39,222 bases of DNA from Candidatus Poribacteria bacterium (GTDB lineage: Bacteria > Poribacteria > WGA-4E > WGA-3G): the NCBI GenBank assembly GCA_022825665.1, contig JAJDWI010000074.1:1-39222 (forward strand). Reading direction: 5' to 3'. A model generated the notes under the pieces. That model made no database searches. It had not been told where the DNA came from and worked only from the letters and a program-made list of their open reading frames with translations. Numbering within the stretch: position 1 is the first letter of the stretch; each line of letters begins with the position of its first letter. The position numbers were made by a program, and so were the translations under genes. Of this stretch, positions 6,617 through 39,222 are shown piece after piece.

Positions 6617-8005
6617 ATGGAAATTATGAAACCCAATATACTTCTTCTTATGACAGACCAGCAGCGGTGGGATGCAATGGGTTGCAGCGGTGGATGGATG
6701 CAAACACCAAATTTGGATCGGATTGCTGGCGAAGGTATCAGATTCAATAACTGCGTTACGACTTCACCTGTTTGTGTCCCAACACGGCTAAGTTTGGCAA
6801 CTGGTTTGTATCCTCATAATACCGGTGTTTGGAATAATATGGGGCACACGATGTCCGCAGAAACACCGACATGGATGCAAGCAGTTCGCAATGCGGGTTA
6901 TCGTACAAGTTTATTCGGAAAAACACACCTTCATCCACATGGCAACAGCGATTTACGTGAACGTGAAGATTTATTGAATACTTACGGTTTAGACGATGTA
7001 AATGAGATTGGAGGACCTCGGGCGAGTACAAGTGTCAAATCACACATGACTGCGATGTGGGAAGAAAAAGGATTGTGGGACGCTTACCGCGCTGATTATA
7101 AGGAACGATTCAGTACAAAACCTTATATGGTCCGTCCCTCACCACTTGGACTTGAAAACTACGCAGATGTCTATGTAGGACAGCAAGCGAAACAGTATCT
7201 ACAAAACTATGACCGTAAAGAACCGTGGTGCTGCTGGGTGAGTTTTGGTGGACCACATGAACCTTGGGACACACCTGAACCGTATGCCAGTATGTATGAT
7301 CCGAATGATATGCCGCCACCTATACCACGGCAACAGGCTGGAGACCGTCTTCGTGGTAATTTGGACAACATGATGAATCGCATGAACCCACAATTTGAAG
7401 AAGGAGAAGTAGGTCGACTTCGCGCAGACTACGCAGGTAATATCACGCTCATTGATGCACAAATAGGTGAAATCCTTGATGCAATTTCTGAACGTGGTGA
7501 ATTGGAAAATACGGTGATTATACACTGTTCTGATCACGGAGAAATGAATGGAGATTATGGGTTAATATATAAAAGTAACTTTCTCAACGGTGCTGTCCGA
7601 ATTCCCTTCCTTGTACGTACCCCTGACACCTTGAAACATGAGACATCAAATCGTGTCTGTGATAGTCCTGTTGAATGGATTGACATCGGTCCCACGCTTG
7701 TTGAAATGGCAGGTGGAGAAATGAAACATCGTCAATTCGGTAAGTCATTGTGTCCAGTCCTTGAGAACACAGAATCAACCCATCGTGAATTTGCTATTTC
7801 TGAAATATCAGGTGAAATAATGCTGTTGAATAAGGAATGGAAAATAGCGTTAAATTCTGATAGTGAACCGTATCTCTTATTTGATGTGCATAACGATCCT
7901 GATGAGATTAATAATCTCGCAGGATTGCCTGAAATGAAAGAGATAGAGACAAAATTGCGGCTACAAATATTGGAGTTCCTATTTCATACTCAGACCAAAA
8001 AATGA
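6617..8005 (+). CDS. Sulfatase, predicted cytoplasmic
   Basis: Type I sulfatase of the alkaline-phosphatase superfamily that hydrolyses sulfate esters. 462 aa, no signal peptide. The metal motif LLMTDQQRWD lies near the N-terminus. The formylglycine signature CVPTRLSLATG has Cys53 as the residue to be oxidised and Arg57. The second metal cluster CSDHGEMNGD is near residue 300. An alternative ATG at 6626 has a better-placed GGATGG site, so the true protein may begin three residues later. The next gene is a close paralogue that does carry an export signal. An activating enzyme (FGE or anSME) is required and is not in the window. Confidence 0.92.
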   Translation: MEIMKPNILLLMTDQQRWDAMGCSGGWMQTPNLDRIAGEGIRFNNCVTTSPVCVPTRLSLATGLYPHNTGVWNNMGHTMSAETPTWMQAVRNAGYRTSLFGKTHLHPHGNSDLREREDLLNTYGLDDVNEIGGPRASTSVKSHMTAMWEEKGLWDAYRADYKERFSTKPYMVRPSPLGLENYADVYVGQQAKQYLQNYDRKEPWCCWVSFGGPHEPWDTPEPYASMYDPNDMPPPIPRQQAGDRLRGNLDNMMNRMNPQFEEGEVGRLRADYAGNITLIDAQIGEILDAISERGELENTVIIHCSDHGEMNGDYGLIYKSNFLNGAVRIPFLVRTPDTLKHETSNRVCDSPVEWIDIGPTLVEMAGGEMKHRQFGKSLCPVLENTESTHREFAISEISGEIMLLNKEWKIALNSDSEPYLLFDVHNDPDEINNLAGLPEMKEIETKLRLQILEFLFHTQTKK

Positions 8006-8029
8006 TATAAATACGGAACTATAAATCTT

Positions 8030-9553
8030 ATGACACCTAAACCCGATAAGATTAACCGCAGAACATTCATCAAAGAACTCAGTGTAGCAAGTGCAGGTAC
8101 CATATCACTTCTCGGCACCAACACTTTGGCATTGGGTCAAAATGCCAATCCAGTACTTGGTAAAGAACCAAAGAAACCTAACATACTACTTCTGATGACA
8201 GATCAACAACGGTGGGATGCGATGGGATGTAGTGGAGATTGGGTTCAAACACCTAACTTGGATAGGATCGCAAGTGAAGGTGTTCGATTTACGAACTGTG
8301 TTACTACTTCACCGGTATGTGTTCCAGCGCGCCTCAGTTTAGCAACAGGTTTGTACCCACACAACACTGGTGTTTGGAATAACGGAAAACACAAGTTAGC
8401 ACCTGAAACACCTACATGGATGCAGGTAGTACGGGATGCTGGATACCGTACAAGCCTGTTTGGTAAAACACACTTACATACAAATAATGGTGATCTACGC
8501 AAACGAGAACACCTGATGAATGCTTACGGATTAGATGATGTGAACGAAATTGGTGGTCCACGTGCTAATAGAAAGTGCTTATCCTATATGACTGAAATGT
8601 GGGAAGAAAAGGGATTATGGAAAGCTTACCGTGATGACTATCAGGAACGTTTTCAGACGAAAGCACACATGGTTAGACCATCTCCACTTGGTCTCGAAAA
8701 CGATGCAGATGTCTATGTAGGACAGCAAGCAAAACAGTATCTGCAGAACTATAACCGACAAAAACCTTGGTTTTGTTGGGTAAGTTTCGGTGGACCTCAC
8801 GAACCGTGGGATTGCCCTGAACCTTATGCAAGCATGTACAACCCGAATGAGATGCCAAAACCTGTGAACAGACCTGTTAAAGGCAAACGTCCTGTCGGAA
8901 GTTTGGACAATCTTATGAAAAACAAAAAGAAAAGTCCTAAATTTGATGATGGTGATGTCGCAAAAATGCGTGCGGACTATGCTGGTAATGTTACTCTGAT
9001 TGATGATCAGATTGGTGAAATCCTTGATACTATTCAGGAACGTGGAGAACTTGACAATACTGTTATCGTTTTCTGTTCTGACCATGGGGAAATGAACGGG
9101 GATTACGGATTAATATATAAAAGTAATTTCCTCAACGGTGCTGTCCGAATTCCCTTCCTTGTGCGTACCCCTGAAACCTTAAAACTGGATGCATCAGATC
9201 GAATCTGTGATAGTCCCGTTGAATGGATAGATATAGGACCCACGCTTGTTGAACTTGCTGGTAGTGAGATGCAACATCGTCAATTCGGTAAATCGTTGTG
9301 TCCTGTTCTTGACAATACAGGAACAACACACCGTGAATTTGCTATTTCTGAAATATCACGCGAAATAATGCTGCTAAATCAAGAATGGAAAATAGCATTA
9401 AATAGAGAGAAAGAACCGTATCTTCTATTTAATGTACAAGACGATCCTGATGAGGTTAACAATCTCGCGGGGTTACCGAAAATGCAGCAGGTAGAAAAAC
9501 AGTTAACACAGCAAATATCAGAATACTTGTTACAAACACAAACAAAGAACTAA
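8030..9553 (+). CDS. Sulfatase with Tat export signal
   Basis: 507 aa paralogue of the preceding sulfatase, with an added N-terminal twin-arginine signal: NRRTFIK at 9-15, then a weakly hydrophobic stretch to about residue 36. Folded export to the periplasm is expected. The catalytic signature is CVPARLSLATG with Cys97 and Arg101. The N-terminal metal motif LLMTDQQRWD and the late CSDHGEMNGD cluster are conserved. Compared with the paralogue it has a lysine-rich insertion (about 280-300, KNKKKSPKFDDGD). Nucleotide identity to the paralogue is patchy, with near-identical blocks. The gap to the upstream gene is 24 nt. A terminator-like hairpin follows at 9588. Confidence 0.92.
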   Translation: MTPKPDKINRRTFIKELSVASAGTISLLGTNTLALGQNANPVLGKEPKKPNILLLMTDQQRWDAMGCSGDWVQTPNLDRIASEGVRFTNCVTTSPVCVPARLSLATGLYPHNTGVWNNGKHKLAPETPTWMQVVRDAGYRTSLFGKTHLHTNNGDLRKREHLMNAYGLDDVNEIGGPRANRKCLSYMTEMWEEKGLWKAYRDDYQERFQTKAHMVRPSPLGLENDADVYVGQQAKQYLQNYNRQKPWFCWVSFGGPHEPWDCPEPYASMYNPNEMPKPVNRPVKGKRPVGSLDNLMKNKKKSPKFDDGDVAKMRADYAGNVTLIDDQIGEILDTIQERGELDNTVIVFCSDHGEMNGDYGLIYKSNFLNGAVRIPFLVRTPETLKLDASDRICDSPVEWIDIGPTLVELAGSEMQHRQFGKSLCPVLDNTGTTHREFAISEISREIMLLNQEWKIALNREKEPYLLFNVQDDPDEVNNLAGLPKMQQVEKQLTQQISEYLLQTQTKN

Positions 9554-9612: not shown

Positions 9613-9695
9613 CTGATTATTCTACTAAAAAACGCATAATTTGTCCTCCTGAAATTGGCACGTATATTGCTCTAATACTCCCATAATACTTGTAA

Positions 9696-14285: not shown

Positions 14286-14350
14286 AGAAGAAATTATGGC
14301 ATAACGTTAGTTTGACAAAACAGATTTCTGTACTCGGTGCGGTTAAGATT

Positions 14351-14698
14351 CCACACCATAAGCGTCAATTTAAGGAGGAAACGCGTTCGTAGTCGCGCAA
14401 TTCATTCCGCCTCGGACATTATCGTAGGTCGGAGCAAGCACAGCGACCTCCGACATAAATTATGTCTGAACCAAGATTTTCAGGATTACGGGATTTTCAG
14501 GATGTTTCTTATCAACGGTCTCTCCTAATATAATAATTAAAACAAAATCTTTAATAGCAGATACAGAACAGTAGATACTTGGTAAGGAACGTGATTGTAC
14601 ATACTCTTATCCTGAAAATCTTGTAATCCTGAAAATCCCGGTTCAGACAACAAGCAATTCAGACAGACAAGTCTCACTAAATTTATGCCTATGTGTGG
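14351..14698. repeat. Composite repeat cassette, copy 1
   Basis: This fills most of the gap between the UbiA gene and the third sulfatase. The outer ends form an inverted pair (CCACACCATAAGCGTCAATTTA-like left, TAAATTTATGCCTATGTGTGG right). Modules in order: a TTTAAGGAGGAAACGCG segment, the core GTAGTCGCGCAATTCATTCCGC (hairpin partly broken here), a GTAGGTCGGAG/CTCCGAC hairpin (about 14424-14454), then a nested inverted-repeat element from TGTCTGAACC (14463) to GGTTCAGACA (14649), and a tail with AAGCAATTCAGACAGACAAG. No gene is seen. Confidence 0.7.
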
Positions 14699-14784
14699 TT
14701 AGGAAATCGCACATACCGGGTTATGAAAATAAGATTCTAAGCATAATGAATCTACATTAGCATTCAAAAATGAAAGGACATCAG

Positions 14785-16233
14785 ATGAAAAACATCGTCT
14801 TATTGATTACTGATACATTCCGCTATGACAACCTTGGTGATCGGGCAGAAAAACCTATCCGAACACCAATGCTTGATACATTTGAGGCAGAACGCGCTAC
14901 TGCCATAGACAAATTTTATATGAGTAGTTTTCCCACTATTCCGCATCGCACTGATGTCGCGACCGGAACATTAGGTTGGCCCCACTATGGATGGCAAGCA
15001 ATTGATCTCAGTGGTCCAAACCACATTGCTAAACTCTTAGCGGGACAAGGTTATGCAACGCAATTGATATGCGATTGTCCACATCTGTTTAATGCACGAT
15101 TCCAACAAGGATTTCATGCTGCATTCCAACACAGAGGACAAGAAGGTGATAAACCGCTGCTACATCTCAATGATGAGATACAAACTATCATGCCAGATGA
15201 GAAAACACGTCCAAATCCTTCCTTTAGAGGTAACACCTTACCCAACACTCACCGTTGGACAAATAGATACTACCAATACGAAGCTGAGACATTCTCCGGT
15301 AGAACATCCCAATCTACCATAAGATTCTTAGAGGAAAACTATCGGTCTGGTCCATTCTTCTTATGGGTAGATTTCTTTGATCCACATGAACCTTGGGATC
15401 CACCAGAATATATTGTCAAACGTTACGATCCAGATTATTCTGGACCCCCAATGTTACATCCAAACTACGGACGGTCCTCCATCTATACAGATGCAGAATT
15501 ACATAATCTTTGGGCACATTATGCAGGAGAATCTGAATTAATTGACCGACATATTGGACAGATACTTCAGAAAGTAGAAGATTTGGAACTCTGGGATGAC
15601 ACGCTTGTCGTAGTAATGTCTGACCATGGTATGTCTATTGGAGAACACGAGAGAACTGGGAAATCAAACATTGATTCTGAAGACCCAAGATATTGGCCCA
15701 CATATCCTGAAATAAACCATGAGATGTTCCTTATTGCTGGCGGTGATGTACCACAAGGACAACAGATAGATATGATTGCACAACCCATGGATATTTTACC
15801 ATCATTGTGTGATTTAGCAGGCGTCACTCTTGATCCACCAAAACCATTTCAAGGACGTTCATTTGCTGACGCGCTTCTCAATGGCGATTCTCAACACAGA
15901 GAATATGCAGTAACTGGAACACATATAGGTTCACGCAACGGAACTGTACCGCGTCGGGCAACTACTCCCTTCCTCGTCACAGAACGTTGGGGATATGCAC
16001 CTGTTGGTGCTTATGGAACACCGGAATTGTTCGACTTAACAGTAGATCCAATTGCAACTAACAATCTTGCAGAAGACAACGAAGCACTCGTCACTGAATT
16101 GCATCAACTCTTTATAGCACATCTTTTGGAACACAACGCACCTGAAACCTTCGTGGAACTTTGGCAAGAATCTCCCACTGGAGATGGAAAAGGAAAATGG
16201 GCGATTGATTATCCTGAAGAGGATAATGACTAA
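14785..16233 (+). CDS. Sulfatase-like hydrolase with Thr at active site
   Basis: 482 aa member of the sulfatase/alkaline-phosphatase superfamily, with no signal peptide. An ATG at 14770 is also in frame, but AAAGGA at 14773-14778 sits correctly for ATG 14785, which is chosen. The fold motifs are present: IVLLITDTFRYD at the N-terminus (metal Asp), FFDPHEPWDPPEY in the middle and VVMSDHGMSIGEHE (metal Asp/His). At the formylglycine position the sequence reads SSFPTIPHRTDVATG, so the C/S-x-P-x-R signature has Thr (codon 14935-14937, residue 51). Thr is the nucleophile in NPP and phosphopentomutase relatives, so this may be a phospho- rather than sulfo-hydrolase. Confidence 0.85.
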   Translation: MKNIVLLITDTFRYDNLGDRAEKPIRTPMLDTFEAERATAIDKFYMSSFPTIPHRTDVATGTLGWPHYGWQAIDLSGPNHIAKLLAGQGYATQLICDCPHLFNARFQQGFHAAFQHRGQEGDKPLLHLNDEIQTIMPDEKTRPNPSFRGNTLPNTHRWTNRYYQYEAETFSGRTSQSTIRFLEENYRSGPFFLWVDFFDPHEPWDPPEYIVKRYDPDYSGPPMLHPNYGRSSIYTDAELHNLWAHYAGESELIDRHIGQILQKVEDLELWDDTLVVVMSDHGMSIGEHERTGKSNIDSEDPRYWPTYPEINHEMFLIAGGDVPQGQQIDMIAQPMDILPSLCDLAGVTLDPPKPFQGRSFADALLNGDSQHREYAVTGTHIGSRNGTVPRRATTPFLVTERWGYAPVGAYGTPELFDLTVDPIATNNLAEDNEALVTELHQLFIAHLLEHNAPETFVELWQESPTGDGKGKWAIDYPEEDND

Positions 16234-16767
16234 CCTTATGCTTTTTACATTCGTAGGGGCGAGGTCCCCTCGCCCGTTCTTCGTAGCACAAACTTTCCAG
16301 TTAGTGCCATTCACCTCCAACGCCACAATATCTTATTATCCTTTGAAACGAAATATAAACCCACCAAGTCCCTCTTCTCCTATCCTGAAAATCCTGAAAA
16401 TCCTGGTTCAGACAACAAGCAATTGTAGTCGCGCAATTCATTGCGCCTCGGACACTAACGTAGGGGCGAGGTTTCCTCGCCCGTCTTCACTTCGGACATT
16501 CTCGCAGGTCGGACAAGTATTGTGTCTGAACTAAGATTTACAGAATAAGAGATTTGTATGCTAATGTTCCTATGTAAAAGTTAGCCCTTCATCCTGGACA
16601 ACGGAATATATACTACAAATTCCCAATCCTGAAAACCCTGGTTCAGACAAATGGTATTACTTTACAAACACATTCAAAATTATCCGAAGAAATATCAAAA
16701 TTAACATTCAACATAAATCCAAATTCAGTTGTCTAACATACAAACATAATTGAATAAGGAGAATAAA
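16234..16767. repeat. Gene-free gap with hairpins and repeat element
   Basis: Contents in order: a hairpin GGGCGAGG-TCC-CCTCGCCC at 16257-16275; a TCCTGAAAATCCTGGTTCAGACA arm at about 16383-16414; the core GTAGTCGCGCAATTCATTGCG at 16425-16445; a second hairpin GGGCGAGG-TTT-CCTCGCCC at 16464-16482; and an inverted-repeat element from TGTCTGAAC (16523) to GTTCAGACA (16649), whose interior is in the opposite orientation to that at 22050. From 16650 to the TPR gene nothing else is recognised apart from its ribosome site. Confidence 0.65.
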
Positions 16768-18729
16768 ATGAAATCTAAACATTTTGGGATTATATGTTCT
16801 ATAATTCTTGTATATACTTTCTTCCCGTTTATACCTACATTAGCAGATGAGTCAGAAAATATTCAGCAACTGTATAATACTGCAGATGTTTTATATAGTC
16901 AGGCAAATTATGCCGGTGCGATTGCTAAATATGTAGAAGCACTTGAAGAATCAAAGAAACCTGGTGTAAGAACTGAAATGATAGACAAGGATTTCAATAC
17001 TTTGGTAAACTTCCGAATTGCCGTTTCCTATTCTCGATTAGCAGAACAGACCGGGAACAATGATCATTATAACTCCGCTATCAAACATATCAACATTGTC
17101 GCACCAACCGCCAAAATACCAAAACACCAACAGGCTTTAACCTACCTCTTAGGACATACGCTCTTTCGCACAAAGCAATATGAACTTGCGGAAGAACAAT
17201 TTATGAAGTTAATTGTTGACTTTCCAGATAGTTTACAGGTAGAGCATGCATGGTATGCAATCGGTCAACTGAACTACAAACTGGGTGATTTTGAAAAAAC
17301 GCGATCTGCATTCAGTAATCTTATTGTTAAATATCCTAAATCCAATTTCAAGGACGATGCACAACTTCTCATTGCCCAAACATTTCTTGATGAACACAAC
17401 TATGATGCGGCATACAAAGAATTCGAAAAAATAAATACACCCGCATTTAAGCAATATCCTGATAAGCAAGCAGAAGCGATGTACAAAGCTGCATTCAGTT
17501 TATACAAATTAGCAAAGTATGACGATGCAATCCGCAGATACACAGACTTTATCAAGCAGTACACAAACCACATCACAACTCACAGTTTAATTACTGCAGC
17601 ATACTTCGACCTTGGTAAAATATATACTGAGCAGTCAGACTTTGACAGGGCGCGTATTAACTATAAAAATGCATTAAACAGCACATCTGACAAAGAACTC
17701 CAATCAGAAATCCATACTGAAATTGGACATTCATTCTTTAAACAAACTGACTATGTAAATGCAATCTCTACATATTCTGTGGTAATTGAACTTTATCCAG
17801 ACAGTAACTTTGTTGCAGATGCAAAACTTGGTATTGCCGACAGTCATTTCCGTCTCGAAAACTGGAACAAGGCTACTGCTGCATTTAAAGATGTCATTGA
17901 ATACATTACCAACGATTTCAAGTTCAGTAATACTACAGAACACGTTTATATACCTTATTCTTCTTACCTTGTAGCAGAGGCATATTTCAAACTTGGAACA
18001 CAACAGAAAGAAATAAGTCAGGTTGAGTTAGCAACTGAATCGTTTAAACAAGCGTTAACATGGTACCAGAATACCGTTGCCAACTTTCCAAAAAACAAAA
18101 TAGCCCCGCACGCAATCTTCGGTGAAATATGGTCCCTAAATGAATTAGGACGATATAAAGACTTAGAAAAAACTGCAAATAAATATATTGAGAAGTATCA
18201 AAACAATCCTGAATTTGATCTGTTTGTTGCAGAGGTACAACTCCAACTTGCTGATATCATGCGTATGGAATATAAACAATATGTCCAGGCAGCAAGAGAA
18301 TATGCCAAGATTTCTAATTTTTCTTCACACCCGAAGTTTCATTTCGTAAAGTTAATGGCGAAATATTTTGAAGGGAAATGCTACTTCGAAGCGTCAAAAC
18401 CAGTTGATTATATAGAGGGCGATCCCATCTCAAAATTGAATACAGACTATCTCAAAAAATCAGTTGTCGCATTCCAAGAGGTAAATAAGGTGTTTGCTGA
18501 TGAATCTTTTTTATCTGGTGTAACTGAAGGTCTGTATAATGACTTTCCTGAACGTGTTCCTCAGGTAGAGTCTGCACTTATGAATGAAGCACTTTCACAT
18601 GAGATGCTTGGCAACTTAGATGCAGCACGGAAATGTTATACAAGCATACCAGAAACAAGTAAGTCTTATCAAAAGGCTCGATTTCAATTGAAACGACTTC
18701 AAGAAATTGAAAATGTATCAGATAATTAA
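16768..18729 (+). CDS. Exported TPR-repeat protein
   Basis: 653 aa. The frame is open from a TTG at 16750, but AAGGAG at 16756-16761 places the start at ATG 16768. A signal peptide (about 1-25, ending TLADE) is followed by tetratricopeptide repeats along almost the whole length, for example YNTADVLYSQANYAGAIAKY, AWYAIGQLNYKLGDFEKTR, EIGHSFFKQTDYVNAISTY and ALSHEMLGNLDAARKCY. The spacing of long linkers between repeats resembles BamD/YbgF-type envelope TPR proteins. It probably acts as a periplasmic or outer-membrane scaffold. No catalytic domain is seen. It is likely a single transcription unit. Confidence 0.85.
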   Translation: MKSKHFGIICSIILVYTFFPFIPTLADESENIQQLYNTADVLYSQANYAGAIAKYVEALEESKKPGVRTEMIDKDFNTLVNFRIAVSYSRLAEQTGNNDHYNSAIKHINIVAPTAKIPKHQQALTYLLGHTLFRTKQYELAEEQFMKLIVDFPDSLQVEHAWYAIGQLNYKLGDFEKTRSAFSNLIVKYPKSNFKDDAQLLIAQTFLDEHNYDAAYKEFEKINTPAFKQYPDKQAEAMYKAAFSLYKLAKYDDAIRRYTDFIKQYTNHITTHSLITAAYFDLGKIYTEQSDFDRARINYKNALNSTSDKELQSEIHTEIGHSFFKQTDYVNAISTYSVVIELYPDSNFVADAKLGIADSHFRLENWNKATAAFKDVIEYITNDFKFSNTTEHVYIPYSSYLVAEAYFKLGTQQKEISQVELATESFKQALTWYQNTVANFPKNKIAPHAIFGEIWSLNELGRYKDLEKTANKYIEKYQNNPEFDLFVAEVQLQLADIMRMEYKQYVQAAREYAKISNFSSHPKFHFVKLMAKYFEGKCYFEASKPVDYIEGDPISKLNTDYLKKSVVAFQEVNKVFADESFLSGVTEGLYNDFPERVPQVESALMNEALSHEMLGNLDAARKCYTSIPETSKSYQKARFQLKRLQEIENVSDN

Positions 18730-18829
18730 AGAGATAGGTTTGAGTCGAAGTATACAAAATAATATTGTTGTGATGAATATAGTCGGTTCATTATAAAATC
18801 TATTAAATATGAAAGAGACACAGTAACAC

Positions 18830-20140
18830 ATGCAAACTTCCGGGTCATTGATGAATGAACTCAGTCAAATAGTGGGACAGTCTGCTATCCTTTCAGATGC
18901 CGAGAGTTCAGATTATTCTTATGATGGCAAAGTACCAAAAACAATTGTTTTGCCTGCATCAGTTGGTGAAATTCAAGATATTCTACACTATGCTTCAGAA
19001 AAAGGATTATCTGTAATGCCTGCTGGTGCGGGTACAAAACTCGGTATCGGCAACTTAGCAAGTCCAACAGATATAGTCCTTGCAACAACCCAACTCAGTA
19101 AAGTGGTGGAGTATGAACCTGCAGATTTAACTGTTACTATAGAAGCAGGGATGAAATTGGCAGACCTACAAAAAGAATTAGCACAACATAGACAATTTCT
19201 GCCGTTGATTCCTCCATATTCAGATAAATGCACTATCGGGGGAATAGTAGCAACAAATGTGAGTGGTCCATTACGACTCCGATATGGAACAGCACGAAAT
19301 TTAGCTTTAGGAATGCAAGTGGTTCACGCATCAGGGACCGTTGTAAAAAGTGGTGGAAAAGTCGTTAAAAATGTCGCAGGATATGACTTAAATAAACTTT
19401 ATATCGGGTCGTACGGAACACTTGGTATCATAACTGAGGTAACACTCAAATTAGCACCGTTACCTGTGAAAGAGACAATAATCGCTGCACAGTTTCAGAA
19501 CATTCATGATGCAGTACAAGCTGGATTAAAGGTCGTCAGATCACAGTCCTTACCATCCTACTCGAATCTTTTGGTAGGTAATCCAATAGAACCATTTAAG
19601 GATAACAAACCAATAGTGATTATCGGTTTTGCGGGGGATCCAGAAACAATCTCATGGCAACTAAAGACCACCCGTTCACTATTGGAACAAAATAATACTA
19701 TTGGTGTGCATATTATAGATGAAGAAATGAACCAGAGCATTAAAAATGCAATATGGGAATTTCCTGCAGCTGAAAAAAAATCTAAGGACATCCTTGTCAA
19801 AGTCAATCTAAAACGTACAGATTTAGCAAATTTTGTAGAACAGACTCAAATAGATATATGTGAGATGATGGCACTAATAGGGAATGGTGTTCTTTATCTC
19901 AAAATACATACAGATGCAGATACCGATTATCAGAAACTTGCTAATACGCTTTCACAACTGCGACAACACGCTGAAGTTACTAATGGCAACCTTATCATAG
20001 AGAATGCACCGCCAGACCTGAAACGTCAGATTGATATATGGGGTTCCATCGGGAACACATTAAAGTTGATGAAACAGGTCAAAGTAAAATTTGATAAAAC
20101 TTGCCTACTAAATCCTGGGCGTTTTGTTTCAGGTATCTAA
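18830..20140 (+). CDS. glcE: FAD-binding oxidoreductase, GlcE-like
   Basis: 436 aa of the FAD_binding_4 (PCMH-type) family. The FAD-contact motifs are clear: VMPAGAGTKLGIG (about 62-74), YEPADLTVTIEAG (about 95-107), CTIGGIVATNVSGPLRLRYG (about 137-156), VKNVAGYDLNKLYIGSYGTLGIITEVTLKL (about 183-212), and a C-terminal KTCLLNPGRF. The length and sequence fit GlcE, the accessory FAD subunit of glycolate oxidase, rather than the longer catalytic GlcD. GlcE normally works with GlcD and the Fe-S protein GlcF; neither is in the window, so partner and substrate remain uncertain. Confidence 0.8.
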   Translation: MQTSGSLMNELSQIVGQSAILSDAESSDYSYDGKVPKTIVLPASVGEIQDILHYASEKGLSVMPAGAGTKLGIGNLASPTDIVLATTQLSKVVEYEPADLTVTIEAGMKLADLQKELAQHRQFLPLIPPYSDKCTIGGIVATNVSGPLRLRYGTARNLALGMQVVHASGTVVKSGGKVVKNVAGYDLNKLYIGSYGTLGIITEVTLKLAPLPVKETIIAAQFQNIHDAVQAGLKVVRSQSLPSYSNLLVGNPIEPFKDNKPIVIIGFAGDPETISWQLKTTRSLLEQNNTIGVHIIDEEMNQSIKNAIWEFPAAEKKSKDILVKVNLKRTDLANFVEQTQIDICEMMALIGNGVLYLKIHTDADTDYQKLANTLSQLRQHAEVTNGNLIIENAPPDLKRQIDIWGSIGNTLKLMKQVKVKFDKTCLLNPGRFVSGI

Positions 20141-20251
20141 TCTGGTCTCTCTTAAATTCCTTTCTTGTAACAACTCTTTCAAGTCATTTATTCTAATATA
20201 GTACCAATTGTTCATGAATAGCATGCAACCAAAAATAGGGAAGGGTGAAAC

Positions 20252-21871
20252 ATGGATAAAACAAAAGCAAGAATATTGTGGATAGATGACGAAATTGATG
20301 GATCGATAACAAGTCCATTACTAAAATCTGAGTTGAAACCTTACATACGCTTTTTAGAATACCAAGGATACGATGTTATATTTGTTGATAATCTTGTTAA
20401 GGGTATTACTTTACTTAGAGAAGACGCTTTTCATGCGATATTATTAAGTTGTGATGCTCCTACTGACACAGATGATCAACTGTCATATATCAGAACAGTT
20501 AACACCCACATACCTATTATTCTTCTTACAAATGCCGGTGGACAAGAGATATTGGCACAAGCAAGTCTGTATGGTGTTGACGATGTATTGATTATGCCTA
20601 CAAATCCAAGACAATTGGTATCATCTCTTACATATATATTGGATAAACAGCAGTTACTTGAGACATATACCCTTCAAGCGTATGTCAAGAACTTTAATAA
20701 ACAACCAACATCGGAACATAGCCAACCGCAAAAACTGGTCGATCAGTTTCATGAAAATGATTGGCAGGGATGGATTGATACATATATCCATTATGCTGAG
20801 TGGGACATTAAATTTGATGGACTCTCTAATGTTGATGAACTAAAAACAATCCATGCACGGGAAAAAAAGGATGCCAATGCAGCGTTTGCAGACTATATAG
20901 AAAACACCTATACTTCTTGGATTGATGGAGAAAATTCACCTACCCTATCGGTGGATGTTTTCTACAAATATGTCATTCCTGAAATTCAAGTGGGAAAATC
21001 AGTACTCTTTATAATTATGGATTGTATGCGGTTGGACCACTGGCTAAAGATCGAACCTATGCTTTACAACGACTTCAATATGGTAAAGCACTATTACTAT
21101 TCCATATTACCAACTACTACACATTATGCTCGAAATGCTATTTTCAGTGGACTCTTTCCAAGTGATTTGTCTGAACGATATCCAAGCCTATATGCTGAAC
21201 CTGATGAAGAACAAACAAGCATCAATAGATATGAAAAAGAACTGATGTACTTACAACTTGATCGGCACGGAATAGTTTTGAAGCCGACACCCCACTACTT
21301 CAAAATATTTGATGCACGGGGTGAAAATCAATACTTTCAGTGGTTAACTGAAGCACCACGTATCAGTTTAGCGGCTGTGGTCGTAGATTTCCTTGACATG
21401 TTAACGCACCTACGAAGTGAGGTAGACCTATTTCAGCAACTTGTACCAAATGAAGAGGCATTCAGATTACTGGTACAAACATGGTTTCGTAATTCACGAA
21501 TATATGAGCTAATTCAACTTGCAGCAGAACGCGGTTTAACTATAATATTAACATCCGACCACGGTTCAGTATTATGTAATAATGCAGCAAGAATTTCCAG
21601 TCCACATGAACTCTCAAGTGGTCTCAGAGTGAAAGAGGGTTCGGATATATCCTATGAACCTGAAACAGGTATACTTATAGATAATCCAAAAACATATAAA
21701 TTGCCTTATGAGGCATCAGAGAAGAATTATATATTTGCTAAAAATGATTATTATTTTGTATTCGAAAGACAGTTTAACTCGTATAAAGACATATTTCAGG
21801 GAAGCTTCCAACACGGCGGAGTTTCATTAGAAGAAATGATTCTACCCTGTGTCATTCTTGAACCAAAGTAA
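20252..21871 (+). CDS. PorX-like receiver-PglZ protein, degenerate receiver
   Basis: 539 aa with the PorX architecture: an N-terminal response-regulator receiver (about 6-125), a helical linker and a C-terminal PglZ domain (about 245-539) of the alkaline-phosphatase superfamily. PglZ residues are intact: Asp257 and Asp262 in MDCMRLDHW, a Thr cluster 288-290 before HYARNAIFSGLFPSD (nucleophile candidate), Asp436-His437 in TSDHGS and His521 in FQHGG. The receiver keeps Asp12-Asp13 and switch Thr93, but the phospho-acceptor position holds Ser66 (ILLSCDAP) and the usual Lys of the KP motif is Met115 (LIMPTNP). PorX in Bacteroidota is linked to type IX secretion and hydrolyses oligoadenylates. No secretion genes are nearby. 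Confidence 0.85.
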   Translation: MDKTKARILWIDDEIDGSITSPLLKSELKPYIRFLEYQGYDVIFVDNLVKGITLLREDAFHAILLSCDAPTDTDDQLSYIRTVNTHIPIILLTNAGGQEILAQASLYGVDDVLIMPTNPRQLVSSLTYILDKQQLLETYTLQAYVKNFNKQPTSEHSQPQKLVDQFHENDWQGWIDTYIHYAEWDIKFDGLSNVDELKTIHAREKKDANAAFADYIENTYTSWIDGENSPTLSVDVFYKYVIPEIQVGKSVLFIIMDCMRLDHWLKIEPMLYNDFNMVKHYYYSILPTTTHYARNAIFSGLFPSDLSERYPSLYAEPDEEQTSINRYEKELMYLQLDRHGIVLKPTPHYFKIFDARGENQYFQWLTEAPRISLAAVVVDFLDMLTHLRSEVDLFQQLVPNEEAFRLLVQTWFRNSRIYELIQLAAERGLTIILTSDHGSVLCNNAARISSPHELSSGLRVKEGSDISYEPETGILIDNPKTYKLPYEASEKNYIFAKNDYYFVFERQFNSYKDIFQGSFQHGGVSLEEMILPCVILEPK

Positions 21872-21888
21872 TATGGGCAGGAAACAAC

Positions 21889-22259
21889 AACACCATAAGC
21901 GTCAATTTAAGGAGAGAACGCGTTCGTAGTCGCGCAATTCATTGCGCCTCTTATACCATTTCTAATTGACAATTTGTCAATCGATTCTCGCTTGCAACAC
22001 CCGAAATGAAACGCGTAGGTTGGAGCGAGCAAAGCGACCTCCAACATTATGTCTGAACCAGGATTTTCAGGATTACAAGATTCTCAGGATTGGGAGTTAG
22101 TGAGTATATATTCCGTTGCAAAGGATGAACGTGTACATTTTGCAAAGGAACATTGGCATACAGATCTCTTATCCTGAAAATCCTGAAATCCTGGAAATCC
22201 TGGTTCAGACAACAAGCAATTCAGACGGACAAGAATCACTAAATTGACACTTATGGTTC
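21889..22259. repeat. Composite repeat cassette, copy 2
   Basis: Occupies most of the gap between the PorX-like and dsbD genes. The ends are inverted: CACCATAAGCGTCAATTTA at 21891 and TAAATTGACACTTATGGTT at the right. Order: TTTAAGGAGAGAACGCG, core GTAGTCGCGCAATTCATTGCG (about 21926-21946), a fragment matching the left end of the 124-bp MITE (TTATACCATTTCTAA, about 21952), a GTAGGTTGGAG/CTCCAAC hairpin (about 22016-22045), a nested inverted-repeat element (22050-22210), then the AAGCAATTCAGACGGACAAG tail. Confidence 0.7.
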
Positions 22260-22370
22260 GGTTATGAAATCGAACATATCAAAGTGTCCAAGCAATTACG
22301 AATTTTACTATAAACCAAATAGATTCCATTTGTCAGTCGCTTTACTTTCACGTTCATGGAGAACGTATCT

Positions 22371-24230
22371 ATGTTAAAAAACAACAAACAAAAGTTATTT
22401 CTACTGTTCACTCTATTCACATTACTCTCAACAATATTAACTCTCAATACACATGCCCAGTTCCCCGACATCGGTCTTTCAGATGAACAACCCGCTGAAA
22501 TACTTAGTGCTAAAGGTTATATCTCTCTTGATAAAATCCAACCCGGTACTGACTTCAAAATTGCAATTGTTGCGAGTATAGCAGAAGGTTGGCATGTAAA
22601 TGCAAATCCTACACGCGAACCACTAATCCCTACAGAGATAACACTACCTGATGTCCAGAACATATCTTTTGGTGACGTGGTTTATCCCGTTGGTGATACA
22701 CTGAATTTGGAGTCAATTGGAGGATTAGCATCTGTCTATCACGATACAATTACATTTGGTATCCCAGCAACTGTAAATAAAAATGCAACAATTGAAACAT
22801 CAACATTGGAATTAAAACTCACATACCAGGCATGTAATGATGAACAGTGTCTTTTCCCTGTAACCTTGGATGTGAAGATACCTTTAGAGATAGTTAGTAA
22901 GAATGAAACTGTCCAACAAGCAAATGAGGATATTTTTGCCAGTATCAAATTCGAAAATGAAGATACTAAACAAGGAGGACTTGCAGGGGCATTATCAGGT
23001 GGGAATTTATGGCTTGCCTTTCTTCTCGTTTTTGTTGCAGGAATAGTTACGAGTTTAACACCATGCGTTTACCCACTTATTCCGATAACAGTCTCAGTAT
23101 TCGGGGCAAACGAGTCCACGGGAATTCTCAAATCTTTCATACTTTCTGTTGTGTACGTCTTTGGTATTGTTGTAACCTATTCAATTTTAGGGGTTGCAGT
23201 TGCCTCAACGGGAGCAGTATTCGGACAGATAATGGCAAATCCATGGGTAATAGGCTTCATTAGTTTGATACTATTTGCACTCGGTTTGTCAATGTTCGGT
23301 GTTTTTGAAATTCGACTCCCATCTTCAGTACAAAACAGACTCAACACAGTCGGTGGAACAGGTTTTATTGGTGCATTTGCGATGGGAACTGTTGCTGGAA
23401 TCATCGCTGCACCATGCACTGGTCCGGCATTAGCAGCCGTCTTGGCATACATCGCCACAACAAACAGCACACTACTCGGATTCTGGCTAATGTTCACTTA
23501 TGCAATCGGAATGGGACTATTATTCATCTGCATAGGAACATTTTCAGGTCTGATCTCCTCGCTGCCTCGCTCTGGTGGATGGATGTACATTTTAGAAAAC
23601 GTCTTTGGGCTTGCAATTATGTCAGTGGCACTCTTCTTTCTCAAAGATGTTAATTTCTTTGTCCCAGTGAAGAATGCAATACAGGAATACTTTCCATTTA
23701 TTGTTGTTGTCTGTGGAATATATCTCAGTGATTTAACACAACGTTTCAAAGGAATATCCCTCTTAATGCAGCTTCGTAAAGCATGCGGCATCTTAGTAAC
23801 ACTAATTGGAGTTTTTTTGATAATGGTTGGCGGGTTACAACAACCCGCTGCTGGACCCCATCTGTCTTGGGTTTACGATGACGAACCTGGTGCTTTGCAG
23901 ACTGCAAAACAGGAAGATAAATTAGTGATGCTTGATTTTTACGCATCATGGTGTGCAGCTTGTAATGAACTTGACCACAAGACTTTTTCTGATCAAGCAG
24001 TTATTGATAAGTTAGAAAATTTTATAACCGTCAAACTTGATTTCAGCGTAAAATCTGATGAAATATTGACAGAGAAATATAAAATCCTTGGTTTACCAGT
24101 TGTTATTTTCTTGGATGGAGATGGCAATATATACAAACGGTTAGAAGGTTTCGTTAATGCTGAAGATATGTTGAAAATAATTGACGAGGTAGAGTCTAAA
24201 GCGAAATCTGCTAAAGATGGAACTATGTGA
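22371..24230 (+). CDS. dsbD: Thiol:disulfide interchange protein DsbD
   Basis: Moves electrons from cytoplasmic thioredoxin across the membrane to periplasmic thiol partners. The frame is open from ATG 22356, but GGAG at 22357 serves ATG 22371, giving 619 aa. Order: signal peptide (about 1-30), N-terminal periplasmic domain with the cysteine pair Cys155/Cys160 (ACNDEQCLF), an eight-helix membrane domain with its cysteines in TPCVYPLIP (Cys232) and APCTGPALA (Cys349), and a C-terminal thioredoxin domain with WCAAC (Cys528, Cys531). All six redox cysteines are present. The TPR gene starts 10 nt after the stop, and its GAGGA site overlaps the dsbD stop region. Confidence 0.93.
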   Translation: MLKNNKQKLFLLFTLFTLLSTILTLNTHAQFPDIGLSDEQPAEILSAKGYISLDKIQPGTDFKIAIVASIAEGWHVNANPTREPLIPTEITLPDVQNISFGDVVYPVGDTLNLESIGGLASVYHDTITFGIPATVNKNATIETSTLELKLTYQACNDEQCLFPVTLDVKIPLEIVSKNETVQQANEDIFASIKFENEDTKQGGLAGALSGGNLWLAFLLVFVAGIVTSLTPCVYPLIPITVSVFGANESTGILKSFILSVVYVFGIVVTYSILGVAVASTGAVFGQIMANPWVIGFISLILFALGLSMFGVFEIRLPSSVQNRLNTVGGTGFIGAFAMGTVAGIIAAPCTGPALAAVLAYIATTNSTLLGFWLMFTYAIGMGLLFICIGTFSGLISSLPRSGGWMYILENVFGLAIMSVALFFLKDVNFFVPVKNAIQEYFPFIVVVCGIYLSDLTQRFKGISLLMQLRKACGILVTLIGVFLIMVGGLQQPAAGPHLSWVYDDEPGALQTAKQEDKLVMLDFYASWCAACNELDHKTFSDQAVIDKLENFITVKLDFSVKSDEILTEKYKILGLPVVIFLDGDGNIYKRLEGFVNAEDMLKIIDEVESKAKSAKDGTM

Positions 24231-24240
24231 GGAATAAAAT

Positions 24241-25329
24241 ATGGAAGAAAATAAACAGACTGAAAAAACTGGTCTATTCTCTTATAGTCGTTGGCAACTG
24301 TATACCGAAATTATTGCAGTTATAGGATTTCTTGTGCTTGCAGTAGTCTACACACAACGAGGTGGTGCAGAACTTGATACTCCAAATATCACCCAAGCAG
24401 ACAACTTGATCGTAGAGGCAGATGCATTCTATGATAAACAGGATTTAGCAAGTGCAGGATATCTTTACTGGCAAGCATTACACGCATTAGAAACAGAAAA
24501 AACAAATGAAAACAAATCGGATCGACTACATGTCAATCTTCGTATAGCAGAAATATATTCCCGGAGTAATTGGTTGATAGATGCCAAATCGCGATTACAA
24601 TATGCAGCACAAATTCAACCTGATCATAGAGATGTACTGCTATTAAGTGGTAAGTTCTACCGTGATGAACATTCTCCCGAAAAAGCAACTGAAAAGTTTT
24701 TAGCTGTATTAGATAAGAACCCGAATGACCCTGAAGCAAACTATCTACTCGGAATTATGTATCAAGGGAATAAGCAGTACGAAGAGGCAGCAGAACGTTA
24801 TAAAATAGCAATTGAAAACGATCCTAAACTCAAACTTGTTCCATCTGAAAAAGCACCTTTTGGTATACTGGCACGTCTACAATTGTCACGAACATACAAC
24901 AAATTGTTTCAAAGTTATCTTTTGCTTGATAGAAAACTTACCGATGAGGAATATGAAGAGATTACACGTCTTGAAAATCAAGCAATTATATTATTAGAGG
25001 AAGCAATAAAATTAGAACACAGTACGCCAGAGATAGTAGATGATCTCATCCGATTGTATTATGTTAGAGCCAATGCTCTTAAACGTGAAGCAGCAACTCG
25101 TCCCTATGCTGATGCGTTGGAAGTCTATGAAAGGATTGTTGAACTTGATCCAAACGAAATAACCGCATGGCAGGACATGGGTGACATCTATGACGGATTT
25201 CTTGATGATAACGAAAATGCATTAAAGATGTACAAAAAGGTATATGAATTAGAACCGCACGCAACGACATTAGCAATCATCAAATCACTCGAAGCGGAAA
25301 TTGCAGAAGAAATTAACAATCAAGAATAA
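24241..25329 (+). CDS. Membrane-anchored TPR protein
   Basis: 362 aa with a short cytoplasmic N-terminus, one membrane helix (about 22-40) and then TPR repeats in the presumed periplasmic part: ADAFYDKQDLASAGYLYWQAL, LRIAEIYSRSNWLIDAKSRL, LSGKFYRDEHSPEKATEKFL, YLLGIMYQGNKQYEEAAERY and a last repeat near 300-340 (WQDMGDIYDGFLDDNENALKM). It resembles NrfG/CcmH-like TPR helpers. Directly downstream of dsbD and probably co-transcribed, it may act in periplasmic redox or cytochrome maturation, but no haem-handling motif is seen. It converges with the minus-strand gene ending at 25339. Confidence 0.8.
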   Translation: MEENKQTEKTGLFSYSRWQLYTEIIAVIGFLVLAVVYTQRGGAELDTPNITQADNLIVEADAFYDKQDLASAGYLYWQALHALETEKTNENKSDRLHVNLRIAEIYSRSNWLIDAKSRLQYAAQIQPDHRDVLLLSGKFYRDEHSPEKATEKFLAVLDKNPNDPEANYLLGIMYQGNKQYEEAAERYKIAIENDPKLKLVPSEKAPFGILARLQLSRTYNKLFQSYLLLDRKLTDEEYEEITRLENQAIILLEEAIKLEHSTPEIVDDLIRLYYVRANALKREAATRPYADALEVYERIVELDPNEITAWQDMGDIYDGFLDDNENALKMYKKVYELEPHATTLAIIKSLEAEIAEEINNQE

Positions 25330-25338
25330 CATAAACAG

Positions 25339-25713
25339 TTAGGATTTCTCTGCTTTTCGTTTGAATTTTTCAACAAACGATGTACAGCAGGTATTCTGAT
25401 ACTTTTTGAATATCTTACAACTTCTCTGCATAACTTCAAAAGGTAACTTTCTTGTGCCTACACCTACCTTATTGTCAATCTTCTTCGGTAGATAATATGC
25501 TGCTTTTGCTAAACCTGTAATTCCAATTGCAGTATGAGTTGCAGCACTACCAACAACTATCCCAATTTTCTCTCGATGTTTATATGCTACTTTACCAAGT
25601 TCAATTGCCAATGGCAGATACGGCAATGAACACGACACTACTCTACCAGCTGCCTTTGGTAAATGTGGTATAACAGCAGTCACAGCAGGTCTTAATGCTG
25701 CTAAACTAATCAT
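25339..25713 (-). CDS. Small hypothetical protein
   Basis: 124 aa from the ATG at 25713. The frame extends to 25728, but that first ATG overlaps GGAGGA, which sits 7 nt before the inner ATG and decides the start. The product is basic and moderately hydrophobic (PAVTAVIPHLPKAAGRVV, IGIVVGSAATHTAIGITGLAKAAYYLP) with a Cys-containing, Lys-rich C-terminus (CKIFKKYQNTCC). No family is recognised. A membrane-associated helix around residues 50-75 is possible. Its stop lies 10 nt from that of the converging TPR gene. Confidence 0.5.
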   Translation of the reverse strand: MISLAALRPAVTAVIPHLPKAAGRVVSCSLPYLPLAIELGKVAYKHREKIGIVVGSAATHTAIGITGLAKAAYYLPKKIDNKVGVGTRKLPFEVMQRSCKIFKKYQNTCCTSFVEKFKRKAEKS

Positions 25714-25807
25714 GAGACAATCCTCCATAGTACAAATATGGGTTTATAGTGAAATCCAAAATATATTCACACGTTCTCGTAGGTGCGGTTTCTAACCAAT
25801 GCAGAAT

Positions 25808-26152
25808 GCCATTTAGCGTCACTTTAAGGAGAAACCGCGTTCGTAGTCGCGCAATGCATTCCGCCTCTTATATTATCGCAAGGGCGAGGTCTCCTCGCTC
25901 ACATGCGCACATACAGTCCCGTAGGTCAAAGCAAGCAAAGCGACCTCCAACATGTATTATGTCTGAACAAAGATTTTCAGGATAAGAGACTTGTCTTCCA
26001 ATGTTTCTTTGTCAAAGGTAATCCTTCATCCTTTGCAATAGAATATATACTCACCAACGCCTAATCCTGGAAATCCTGAAATCCTGAAAATCCTGGTTCA
26101 GACAACAAGTAATTCAGACAGACAAGAATCACTAAATTGACACCTATGGTGC
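25808..26152. repeat. Composite repeat cassette, copy 3
   Basis: Lies between the small hypothetical gene and the tRNA pair. The ends are inverted: GCCATTTAGCGTCACTTTA at the left, TAAATTGACACCTATGGTGC at the right. Order: TTTAAGGAGAAACCGCG, core GTAGTCGCGCAATGCATTCCGC, hairpin GGGCGAGG-TCT-CCTCGCTC (25882-25900), a GTAGGTCAAAG/CTCCAAC hairpin (about 25921-25951, weaker), and a nested inverted-repeat element (25960-26104) with its interior opposite to that in copy 2. The tail AAGTAATTCAGACAGACAAG follows. Flanking 25780-25807 holds a further GGTGCGGTTTC fragment. Confidence 0.7.
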
Positions 26153-26224
26153 GGTTAGAAACCGAACCTACCAGGGAGTGTGAACATATTTTGGGATTTT
26201 ACAATAATGTACTGGAAAGAGAGA

Positions 26225-27462: not shown

Positions 27463-27902
27463 ATTACTCCTAATTAGTTGTTCCATGAAGTTTATACCAT
27501 TTCTAAATAATAACTTCTCATTAACAAAAAACGCGTTCGTAGTCGCGCAATTATGAAGATTAAAAAATAAATTGGGTAATTCGGACCCAAACCCGGTAGG
27601 TGCGGTTTCCTACCTAACCAATGCAGAATGCCAAACGCGCATTCTGCCATTAGCGTCAATTTAAGGAGAAACGCGTTTGTAGTCGCGCAATTCATTGCGC
27701 CTCGGACATTCGTAGGGGCGAGGTCCCCTCGCCCGCATGCCCACATACAATCCTAAAGCCCCAGAGGGCGAAATGTGTATAAATTCCAACTTGTTTGAAT
27801 TTTAGACATTCTCACAACATACTATTCGAGTAGTTTCAAAACTGTCCAAACTATAGTACTGTTCAATCACATAGTTTTATTCGTAATAAACTGTTTTCTC
27901 CA
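27463..27902. repeat. Gene-free gap with truncated MITE and half cassette
   Basis: 27495-27552 matches the left half of the 124-bp MITE (TACCATTTCTAA through GTAGTCGCGCAATT), with TTA before it, then diverges. At about 27592-27660 come a GGTAGG/CCTACC hairpin segment and GCAGAATGC/GCATTCTGC inverted pair. From about 27635 the left half of the composite cassette follows: TAGCGTCAATTTAAGGAG, core GTAGTCGCGCAATTCATTGCG and hairpin GGGCGAGG-TCC-CCTCGCCC (27716-27734). The cassette then stops without its right half. Nothing is recognised at 27750-27902. Confidence 0.65.
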
Positions 27903-35067: not shown

Positions 35068-35191
35068 TACCATTTCTAAATAACAACTTCACATTAACAA
35101 AAAACGCGTTTGTAGTCGCGCAATTTATTGCGCCTCTTACATTTGGATTTATTAAAGTCTCAAAATGTGGTTTTATTTATTAGAATTGGTA
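35068..35191. mobile_element. 124-bp MITE, copy 2, TTA target duplication
   Basis: Same length and order as 9696-9819, with ends TACCATTTCTAA and TTAGAATTGGTA. TTA is repeated on both sides (35065-35067 and 35192-35194). Interior differences from copy 1 are scattered single bases. Two full-length copies with different TWA duplications show independent insertions. Confidence 0.75.
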
Positions 35192-35204
35192 TTACACTCT
35201 CATA

Positions 35205-35330
35205 GGTCAGAGGTTGCTTTGCTCGCTCCGACCTACGAGAATGTATGTGAAAATACGGGCGAGGAGACCTCGCCCTACGGAATGTCCGAGACGCAATAAA
35301 ACGCGTGACTACAAACGCGCATCTTCTCCT
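35205..35330. repeat. Half composite cassette, reverse orientation
   Basis: Read on the minus strand this repeats the left half of the composite cassette: TAAAGGAGA, a core variant (GCGCGTTTGTAGTCACGCG), a TTATTGCG remnant, hairpin GGGCGAGG-AGA-CCTCGCCC (35257-35275) and a GTCGGAGCGAGCAAAG hairpin segment (to about 35205). It abuts the stop codon of the PEP-binding protein gene (35331-35333). Confidence 0.6.
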
Positions 35331-37949: not shown

Positions 37950-39222
37950 TTAAAACCGTCTTCCCATGGTGACTGCACCACAGACGACTTTGCCACTGCC
38001 GACAGTCTTACGTTTACGTTGGAGGCTTAGGACGAAATAGGCTGTGCCGTCTATACCGTGATGGTCACGGGTGATTGCTTCGTCGTCTTTGTCTGTGCCG
38101 TCAGTGTTTTCAAGATATTCACAGGTTAAGAACTCATCGGTGACTTCAAGGGGACGATATGCCTCTTTCAACTCTGGGTCTGGTGGATGCACAAGTCTGT
38201 TTCGACAGAAAAAGATTGATGGCTTCCCTGTTTCGTCTACTTTTAGCCTTTGTTTTACTGCATCTATCTGTTTGGCACGAGACTTTTTCGGTTCTTCAAC
38301 GCGGAAACCTGCTTGTTTTAGCTGCTCCACGGCATCTTGATCAGCACTGTCTACCGCAGCATAATCAATACGTTCACCTTCTTCGCGGTGGTCCTTTATC
38401 ATCTTAATGAAATCGGGTTGTGTGAGTTTGGTTTTGTAAATCTCCTTGTATGCATAGACACGACCATCCTTGTCTTTTGCCCACCAGATACAACTTGCGG
38501 GGTTGCGGTATCCCCAGTCAATGCTGAGAAATCGTATCCATTCATCCGGCACGTCAAAGTTGTCAATGATGTGGATGTCGGGTTGGAATTCCTCAAAGAC
38601 TAATCCCTCTCCTGAGACCCATAAGCCTTCATAACCTCGCTTGTAACGCAGTCCTTCAAGGTCTTGGAGTCTATCAACTCTCCGTTTGCCTTCTTCTGTG
38701 ATTTCTCCTGTTAACTGATTGTAAATTTCAGGATTGTCTTTGTATGTCATTTCAAAGAACTGGAGTTTGCCTGCTTTTGTCTGCTGTCGTATCCAGTGGT
38801 TGGGTGTGCTTGGATTGCAGTCTCCGAGTAGGAATGCGATGGGTGCTGTGCCTGCGCGTTCTGAGACTCTTGCTCTGAGATGATCCCATGATTCGAATGG
38901 CACTAATTCTGCTTGATTGACAAAAGCACCGTCGTAGAAGTCTGATAACATGTTCTCGATTTTGTCTAATCCATTGATGTAAATACGGGATCCGTTCCAG
39001 TATTCAAAGAATTCGGGGAGTTCTCCTCCGTATTTTACGATTGGCGTTAGATTCTGAGATTTATAGGTTGAGGGTTTAAAGCCGAGATATTTTTCGTAGG
39101 TTGGTATAACATTCCTATAAACTCTATTGAGATAACGGTGTATGAATGTAAGTCTTGCACCGGGATATTGTCGTGCTAACATGTCCATATAAGCGACGCA
39201 GCTATAGGTTTTGCCTGCATCG
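37950..39222 (-). CDS. Phage terminase large subunit, 5' end outside window
   Basis: The motor that packages DNA into phage heads. Reading continues past the first internal Met (39188) to the window edge, where DAGKTYSCVAY is encoded, the end of a Walker A P-loop. The true start is therefore outside the window; at least 423 codons are present. An ATPase half (about to residue 190 of the visible part) is followed by an RNase H-like nuclease: FLSIDWGYRNPASCIWW (metal Asp), YAAVDSADQDAVEQL and DHHGIDGTAYFVL (late acidic residue), as in PBSX-type terminases. Base composition looks richer in GC than its neighbours. This suggests a prophage or phage remnant beginning here. Confidence 0.85.
   Translation of the reverse strand, partial: DAGKTYSCVAYMDMLARQYPGARLTFIHRYLNRVYRNVIPTYEKYLGFKPSTYKSQNLTPIVKYGGELPEFFEYWNGSRIYINGLDKIENMLSDFYDGAFVNQAELVPFESWDHLRARVSERAGTAPIAFLLGDCNPSTPNHWIRQQTKAGKLQFFEMTYKDNPEIYNQLTGEITEEGKRRVDRLQDLEGLRYKRGYEGLWVSGEGLVFEEFQPDIHIIDNFDVPDEWIRFLSIDWGYRNPASCIWWAKDKDGRVYAYKEIYKTKLTQPDFIKMIKDHREEGERIDYAAVDSADQDAVEQLKQAGFRVEEPKKSRAKQIDAVKQRLKVDETGKPSIFFCRNRLVHPPDPELKEAYRPLEVTDEFLTCEYLENTDGTDKDDEAITRDHHGIDGTAYFVLSLQRKRKTVGSGKVVCGAVTMGRRF

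Follow-up and report, generated by a model that had tools for sequence, protein, structure and literature searches.

Cassettes in the window

The window (the whole stretch of DNA that was analysed, 39,222 nucleotides) is contig C141 of genome G000, a 4.53-Mb, 170-contig MAG that is 95% complete and whose relatives are Candidatus Poribacteria. Three of its gaps carry the same modules in the same order, as the original prediction held, and the terminal inverted repeat (TIR) CATAAGCGTCAATTTA / TAAATTGACGCTTATG refined the bounds to those listed below. Inside the cassettes lie GTAG-tagged hairpins, REP1 (GTAGTCGCGCAATTCATTGCGCC) and REP2 (GTAGGTCGGAGC..GCGACCTCCGACA), joined in cassette 3 only, among the three, by REP3 (GTAGGGGCGAGG..CCTCGCCC). 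They are followed by a TGT element, TGTCTGAACC...GGTTCAGACA, which has 145- and 162-bp forms. The predicted occurrence of this element in both interior orientations was confirmed, positions 22050-22182 and 25972-26104 being 85% complementary.

245-503, no strand assigned: TGT arms and a REP4 hairpin at the window start
14337-14356, + strand: degenerate REP4-type target copy GTGCGGTTAAGATTCCACAC, left flank of cassette 1
14357-14693, + strand: cassette 1 (TIR - REP1 - REP2 - TGT element - inverted TIR), read as a composite MITE
14389-14411, + strand: REP1 in cassette 1, GTAG-tagged hairpin GTAGTCGCGCAATTCATTCCGCC
14424-14455, + strand: REP2 in cassette 1, GTAG-tagged hairpin GTAGGTCGGAGCAAGCACAGCGACCTCCGACA
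14463-14649, + strand: inner TGTCTGAACC...GGTTCAGACA (TGT) element of cassette 1
16523-16649, + strand: TGT element of 127 bp within a TIR-less REP mosaic (16253-16649)
21894-22255, + strand: cassette 2, 362 bp (TIR - REP1 - REP2 - TGT element - inverted TIR)
22050-22211, + strand: inner TGT element of cassette 2, 162-bp form
22256-22275, + strand: right flank of cassette 2, REP4-type target copy GTTCGGTTATGAAATCGAAC; left partner not recognisable
25779-25797, + strand: left REP4 remnant GTAGGTGCGGTTTCTAACC of cassette 3, broken by a AATGCAGAATGCC palindrome (25798-25810)
25810-26148, + strand: cassette 3 (TIR - REP1 - REP3 - REP2 - TGT element - inverted TIR)
25843-25865, + strand: REP1 in cassette 3
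25878-25901, + strand: REP3 in cassette 3, GTAG-type hairpin around GGGCGAGG...CCTCGC
25921-25952, + strand: REP2 in cassette 3
25960-26104, - strand: inner TGT element of cassette 3, 145-bp form, interior inverted relative to 22050-22211
26149-26170, + strand: right REP4 target copy GTGCGGTTAGAAACCGAACCTA of cassette 3
27648-27735, + strand: truncated cassette (TIR - REP1 - REP3)
35112-35279, no strand assigned: cluster of REP1 (+), REP2 (-) and REP3 (-) without TIRs

Half copies had been claimed at 27.6 and 35.2 kb. The first (27620-27735) is a true half copy that retains TIR, REP1 and REP3 and lacks the right end; the second has no TIR element and is a loose REP cluster, not a cassette.

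Genome-wide distribution of the modules

Across the window genome there are about 240 TIR matches, and the TGT-arm pattern gave 299 matches versus 0 with a reversed-pattern control. Within 1.08 Mb of real sequence we counted 30-100 matches each for TIR, REP1-4 and TGT, 16 for PAL5 and 10 for PAL6, while the same 1.08 Mb with its bases shuffled returned none except two for TIR and one for PAL6. The abundance of the modules is far beyond chance.

Cassette structure was assessed in 1.55 Mb read by region, about one third of the genome, which was partly picked for repeat-rich places, so that its counts are not unbiased densities. This sample contains 43 elements of 166-452 bp bounded by two TIRs, and 15 of the 43 carry the exact cargo REP1+ REP3+ REP2+ TGT+ TGT-. 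Every module is nevertheless commoner outside such elements than inside them (TGT arms, 47 inside and 143 outside; REP1, 37 and 87; REP3, 45 and 91; REP2, 22 and 43), and 44 TGT arms are solitary, with the other modules all more than 250 bp away. The original prediction had named modules found mostly alone and in random order as the outcome that would speak against it. Most copies do lie outside cassettes, but within the TIR-bounded elements the order is fixed, with REP1 first in 37 of the 43, and this half-agreement shows why the answer is a nested one. Fixed order inside together with frequent copies outside indicates that the cassette is a real unit whose parts are also independent, and the excess outside identifies it as a composite MITE in which smaller, dispersed hairpins are nested. 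Additionally, the same shell occurs with a second interior of about 265-270 bp that contains AAGCCCCAGCGGGGCGAAAGGTGTAT hairpins, and hybrids of both interiors exist.

Empty sites and target duplications

The comparison of empty and filled sites in relatives, proposed earlier as a check, was run at all three cassettes. The cassette 1 site is empty in G002 and G010, and G014, a 92-95% identical relative, has the same shell with a different interior. At the cassette 2 site G002 is again empty and the interior is replaced in G014, and at the third site the cassette is absent in G002 and G014 keeps the shell without the TGT element. One clean empty site was found, for a canonical 334-bp cassette of the window genome (L003) that has GGTGGTAACCAAACTAACC on both sides; the corresponding sequence on G014:C58 is uninterrupted and holds one target copy, GGTGGTAATCAAACTAATC.

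Direct target duplications were found in 47 elements over all loci, full-length insertion sequences included: 33 were of 20 bp, ten of 19 bp, two of 21 bp and two of 17 bp. Cargo-bearing copies have perfect duplications (L006, 337 bp, 20/20; L166, 341 bp, 20/20; L138, 336 bp, 20/20, in G014), and thus the unit moves whole. Many duplicated targets are the hairpin GTGCGGTTTCCTAACCGCAC. Some duplications are of unique sequence, such as GTGACAAAAACTTTACACAC and GTGAACTTTGACAGACACTC, which pre-existing repeats do not explain. As a control we paired flanks across different elements, which retains the shared REP target, and obtained a 99th percentile score of 14; a score of at least 14 was reached by 15 of the 43 sampled elements, and about half of the 43 lack a recognisable duplication. 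The window's own three cassettes have degenerate or one-sided duplications, the clean ones being at other copies; in cassette 1 the left flank and the right flank at 14693-14712 agree directly at about 14 of 20 positions by eye. In some elements the flanks carry the hairpin loop inverted rather than direct, and we suspect later inversion of the loop.

These observations bear on two other accounts of the cassettes. According to one, GTAG-REP blocks and the TGT element merely piled up in gaps and were spread by homologous recombination, without transposition of any unit. The presence of all modules outside cassettes, the TIR-less mosaics at 16253-16649 and 35112-35279 and the half of sampled elements without a duplication would all suit such a process. 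We consider it extremely unlikely in view of the exact TIR boundaries, the perfect duplications of 19-20 bp at targets that are unique rather than repeated, and the clean empty site.

According to the other, which the original prediction had left as its alternative, the cassettes are structured RNAs or protein-binding sites under selection and the surrounding repeats are incidental. Several stable hairpins in fixed order would fit, as would a weak orientation bias with respect to flanking genes (15 co-directional versus 5 opposite), a bias that could also arise from insertion preference or a terminator effect. Palindromic DNA yields paired changes whether or not RNA is made. This alternative gained no support: the cassettes are units bounded by TIRs, for which target duplications and empty sites were observed, the 92-95% identical relative keeps the TIR shell with unrelated hairpins in place of the interior, and the only Rfam matches at gathering score in the window are two tRNAs. 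We therefore regard it as improbable and read the cassettes as mobile units.

An insertion sequence with matching ends

Ends matching those of the cassettes were found on an insertion sequence (IS) of 1,448-1,472 bp with one ORF of about 440 aa. The spacing of its TIRs (CATAGGTGTCAATTTA / CATAAGCGTCAATTTA) is exactly 1,469 bp in G051 and 1,461 bp in G009. In G051 there are five full copies of equal score; a base-by-base comparison of two of them showed no difference, suggesting recent activity. In G009 the IS ends are asymmetric, TTTAGCGATT and TTTAAGGAAAA, and match the two different cassette ends, TTTAGTGATT and TTTAAGGAGAA, beyond the TIR, supporting the view that the shell of the cassettes derives from an IS of this kind. 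Additionally, two MITE-sized elements and a full IS stand in a row at one G051 locus (L190, G051:C1:651000-655000, positions 389-2673) with a 20-bp REP hairpin between each, as expected of repeated insertion into the same duplicated target.

The window genome holds one IS copy (C101:13964-15411), which has an internal TAA stop and slightly different TIRs (CATAGGTGTCAACTTA) and was inserted into a GTAGGTCGGGTTGAGG-type REP, duplicating 17 bp. An intact transposase was not found in this 170-contig, 95% complete MAG; repeats break assemblies. A 2-kb TIR pair on G000:C10, considered as an autonomous element, was rejected because it consists of two cassettes flanking ordinary genes.

The transposase matches DDE_Tnp_1 (PF01609; E values of 4e-22 and 2e-24) and, above the cut-off of 115 bits, NF033592 transpos_IS4_1 (199-211 bits). 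Its residues D126-D198-E331 (numbered in P0002) have the IS4-type spacing D(60-110)D(100-150)E. The Y(2)R(3)E(6)K motif is incomplete, with R327, E331 and K338 conserved and the tyrosine position variable, and a search for PDB relatives found none. Thus, the partner resembles the IS231, ISH8 and IS4Sa subgroups of the IS4 family in being a single-ORF IS of about 1.45 kb with DDE_Tnp_1, D-D-E spacing in range, R(3)E(6)K and 5'-CAT ends. In published IS4 subgroups, however, duplications are 7-13 bp, about one helical turn, and a complete YREK motif is a hallmark (De Palmenaer et al. 2008, PMC2266710), whereas the partner IS makes duplications of 17-21 bp, about two turns, does not conserve the tyrosine and strongly prefers REP hairpin cores. 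Because of the tyrosine and the duplication length we do not claim membership in IS4 proper; set against the 7-13 bp of the 2008 survey, the partner looks like a new IS4-related subgroup.

The IS1202 group is known for its long duplications, which measure 16-28 bp (PMC10132070), and a TnsB-like transposase of that type might be thought to move the shell. We give this next to no chance, since that family ends in TGT...ACA (PMC10132070) rather than the CAT...ATG seen here, and the transposase of the IS whose ends do match is IS4-like. The best ISNCY_2 matches in relatives are weak, off-target and far below cut-off, and the loci concerned (L181 and L182) carry none of the cassette TIRs, so IS1202 / ISNCY_2 was rejected as partner. 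The cassettes are probably small non-coding transposons of a ~340-bp family with the IS4-like transposase as mover.

REP hairpins as targets

The favoured target is REP4, a GTAG-tagged REP hairpin of the form GTAG-GTGCGGTTTCCTAACCGCAC-CTAC. A RAYT gene of the window genome (C90:61184-61654; PF01797, 60 bits) lies beside such hairpins, and GTAGGTGCGGTTTCCTAACCGCAC-type REP4 hairpins likewise flank the RAYT orthologs of about a dozen relatives. REP4 thus combines the GTAG tag, the hairpin and the adjoining RAYT gene expected of a RAYT-associated GTAG REP, and serves both as a RAYT REP and as the place where the IS4-like element inserts. REP1, REP2 and REP3 have the tag and the hairpin, with no clearly flanked RAYT found for any of them. 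At a separate locus (L060, G000:C159) a Y1_Tnp gene adjoins a seeming TnpB-type gene (IS200/IS605-like), and none of the REPs discussed here was seen beside it.

Duplication length tracks the REP4 loop: with a 4-nt loop it was 20 bp in 17 of 17 cases and with a 3-nt loop 19 bp in four of five (hypergeometric probability ~0.0007 by our own count, in which copies may not be independent). A Chloroflexi cousin of the transposase (36% identity) makes a 21-bp duplication, and in Bacteroidota, where cousins are 24-30% identical, the ends are of CATAGCCGTCA type and the duplications measure 9-11 bp, several of them lying at small palindromes. It is conceivable, if doubtful, that the transposase reads the two hairpin arms (or an extruded cruciform) instead of cutting at a fixed stagger, and that target geometry sets the duplication length. 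Were this so, one IS4-related lineage would span one- and two-turn duplications through half-site spacing. Around IS4-like cousins from other phyla (L259, L268, L274, L283 and L288) the flanks look like inverted hairpin copies, as if the loop had flipped.

ISRm22, an IS4-family member that targets REPs, inserts at the dyad axis of the REP palindrome and duplicates 6 bp (Tobes and Pareja 2006, PMC1525189). The insertion point is the same as for ISRm22 and other REP-targeting ISs; the differences here are a duplication of 17-21 bp whose length follows the loop and a large MITE population that uses the same target. Similarly, REP4 flanking RAYT and the GTAG tags and hairpins of REP1-3 recall the GTAG-tagged REPs of REPtrons (Di Nocera et al. 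2013, PMC3733652), but here REPs are both landing site and cargo of a DDE-transposon MITE, and no RAYT is tied to REP1-3. In the part of the literature that was covered, ISfinder excluded, we came across no IS4-related element reported to make ~20-bp duplications.

Composite MITEs, probably moved by an IS4-like transposase

Taken together, the cassettes are very likely composite MITEs, non-coding derivatives of an IS4-like IS whose transposase acts on their TIRs, with REP hairpins as targets and nested cargo. Direct support comes from the TIRs, the fixed cargo order, the partner IS, the duplication lengths, the REP target, the one clean empty site and the interior turnover in close relatives. 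The original prediction of a mobile element nested inside another is accordingly upheld by the TIRs, the target duplications, an IS with the same ends, the empty sites in sister species and the dispersed inner modules.

Mechanistically, the IS4-like transposase would act in trans on the 16-bp TIRs and join the element to the target at a pair of inverted half-sites (GTK...MAC) separated by about 20 bp. The preferred half-sites would be the two arms of the RAYT-type REP hairpin GTAG-GTGCGGTTTCCTAACCGCAC-CTAC, and repair would leave a copy of the hairpin core on each side. The cargo (REP1-3 and the palindromic TGT element) may have been gained by nested insertion or recombination between elements and would now ride along. 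This explanation needs no host function.

As in other bacterial MITEs, the elements are short, non-coding and TIR-bounded, occur in many copies, show target site duplications (the 47 elements and the one-copy empty site) and have an autonomous partner sharing their ends. They differ in carrying several other repeat families in fixed order and in having at least two interchangeable interiors. Many intergenic repeats of a poorly studied phylum would thereby be explained as one layered system, in which RAYT REP hairpins serve as landing sites of an IS4-like transposon and the MITEs of that transposon carry further REPs. It would also add an IS4-related subgroup with two-turn duplications, about twice the usual length, and two questions become open to experiment: how strand transfers separated by 20 bp are managed by a DDE transposase, and whether the separation is dictated by hairpin geometry.

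The TGT element and other repeats

For standalone TGT elements no target duplication was seen by eye, and no partner was found for the TGT element. At one locus (L145, G009:C1:200001-220000), a GxxExxY-like gene with a PF13366 match lies at 2034-2770 between two TGT elements in direct orientation. The TGT element was therefore considered as the end of a GxxExxY-type element, a candidate rejected as a single G009 case; a PF13366 gene is absent from the window genome and G014, so the association is not general. In the same 13 kb of L145, more TGT elements occur within, or next to, the repeated members of another gene family.

Several further features of the window were noted. ORFs at 6617-9553 and 14770-16233 are sulfatase-like by eye, and the first two sulfatase-like ORFs form a tandem duplication with 76-79% DNA identity in repeats D4-D6. 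At the contig end, an ORF at 37950-39188 resembles by eye a phage terminase large subunit. Lastly, a short repeat (TTATACCATTTCTAA...) occurs at window positions 9693, 21951, 27492 and 35065, and at two other loci (L161 and L165) it supplies the outer arms of a palindrome that encloses a GTAG REP.
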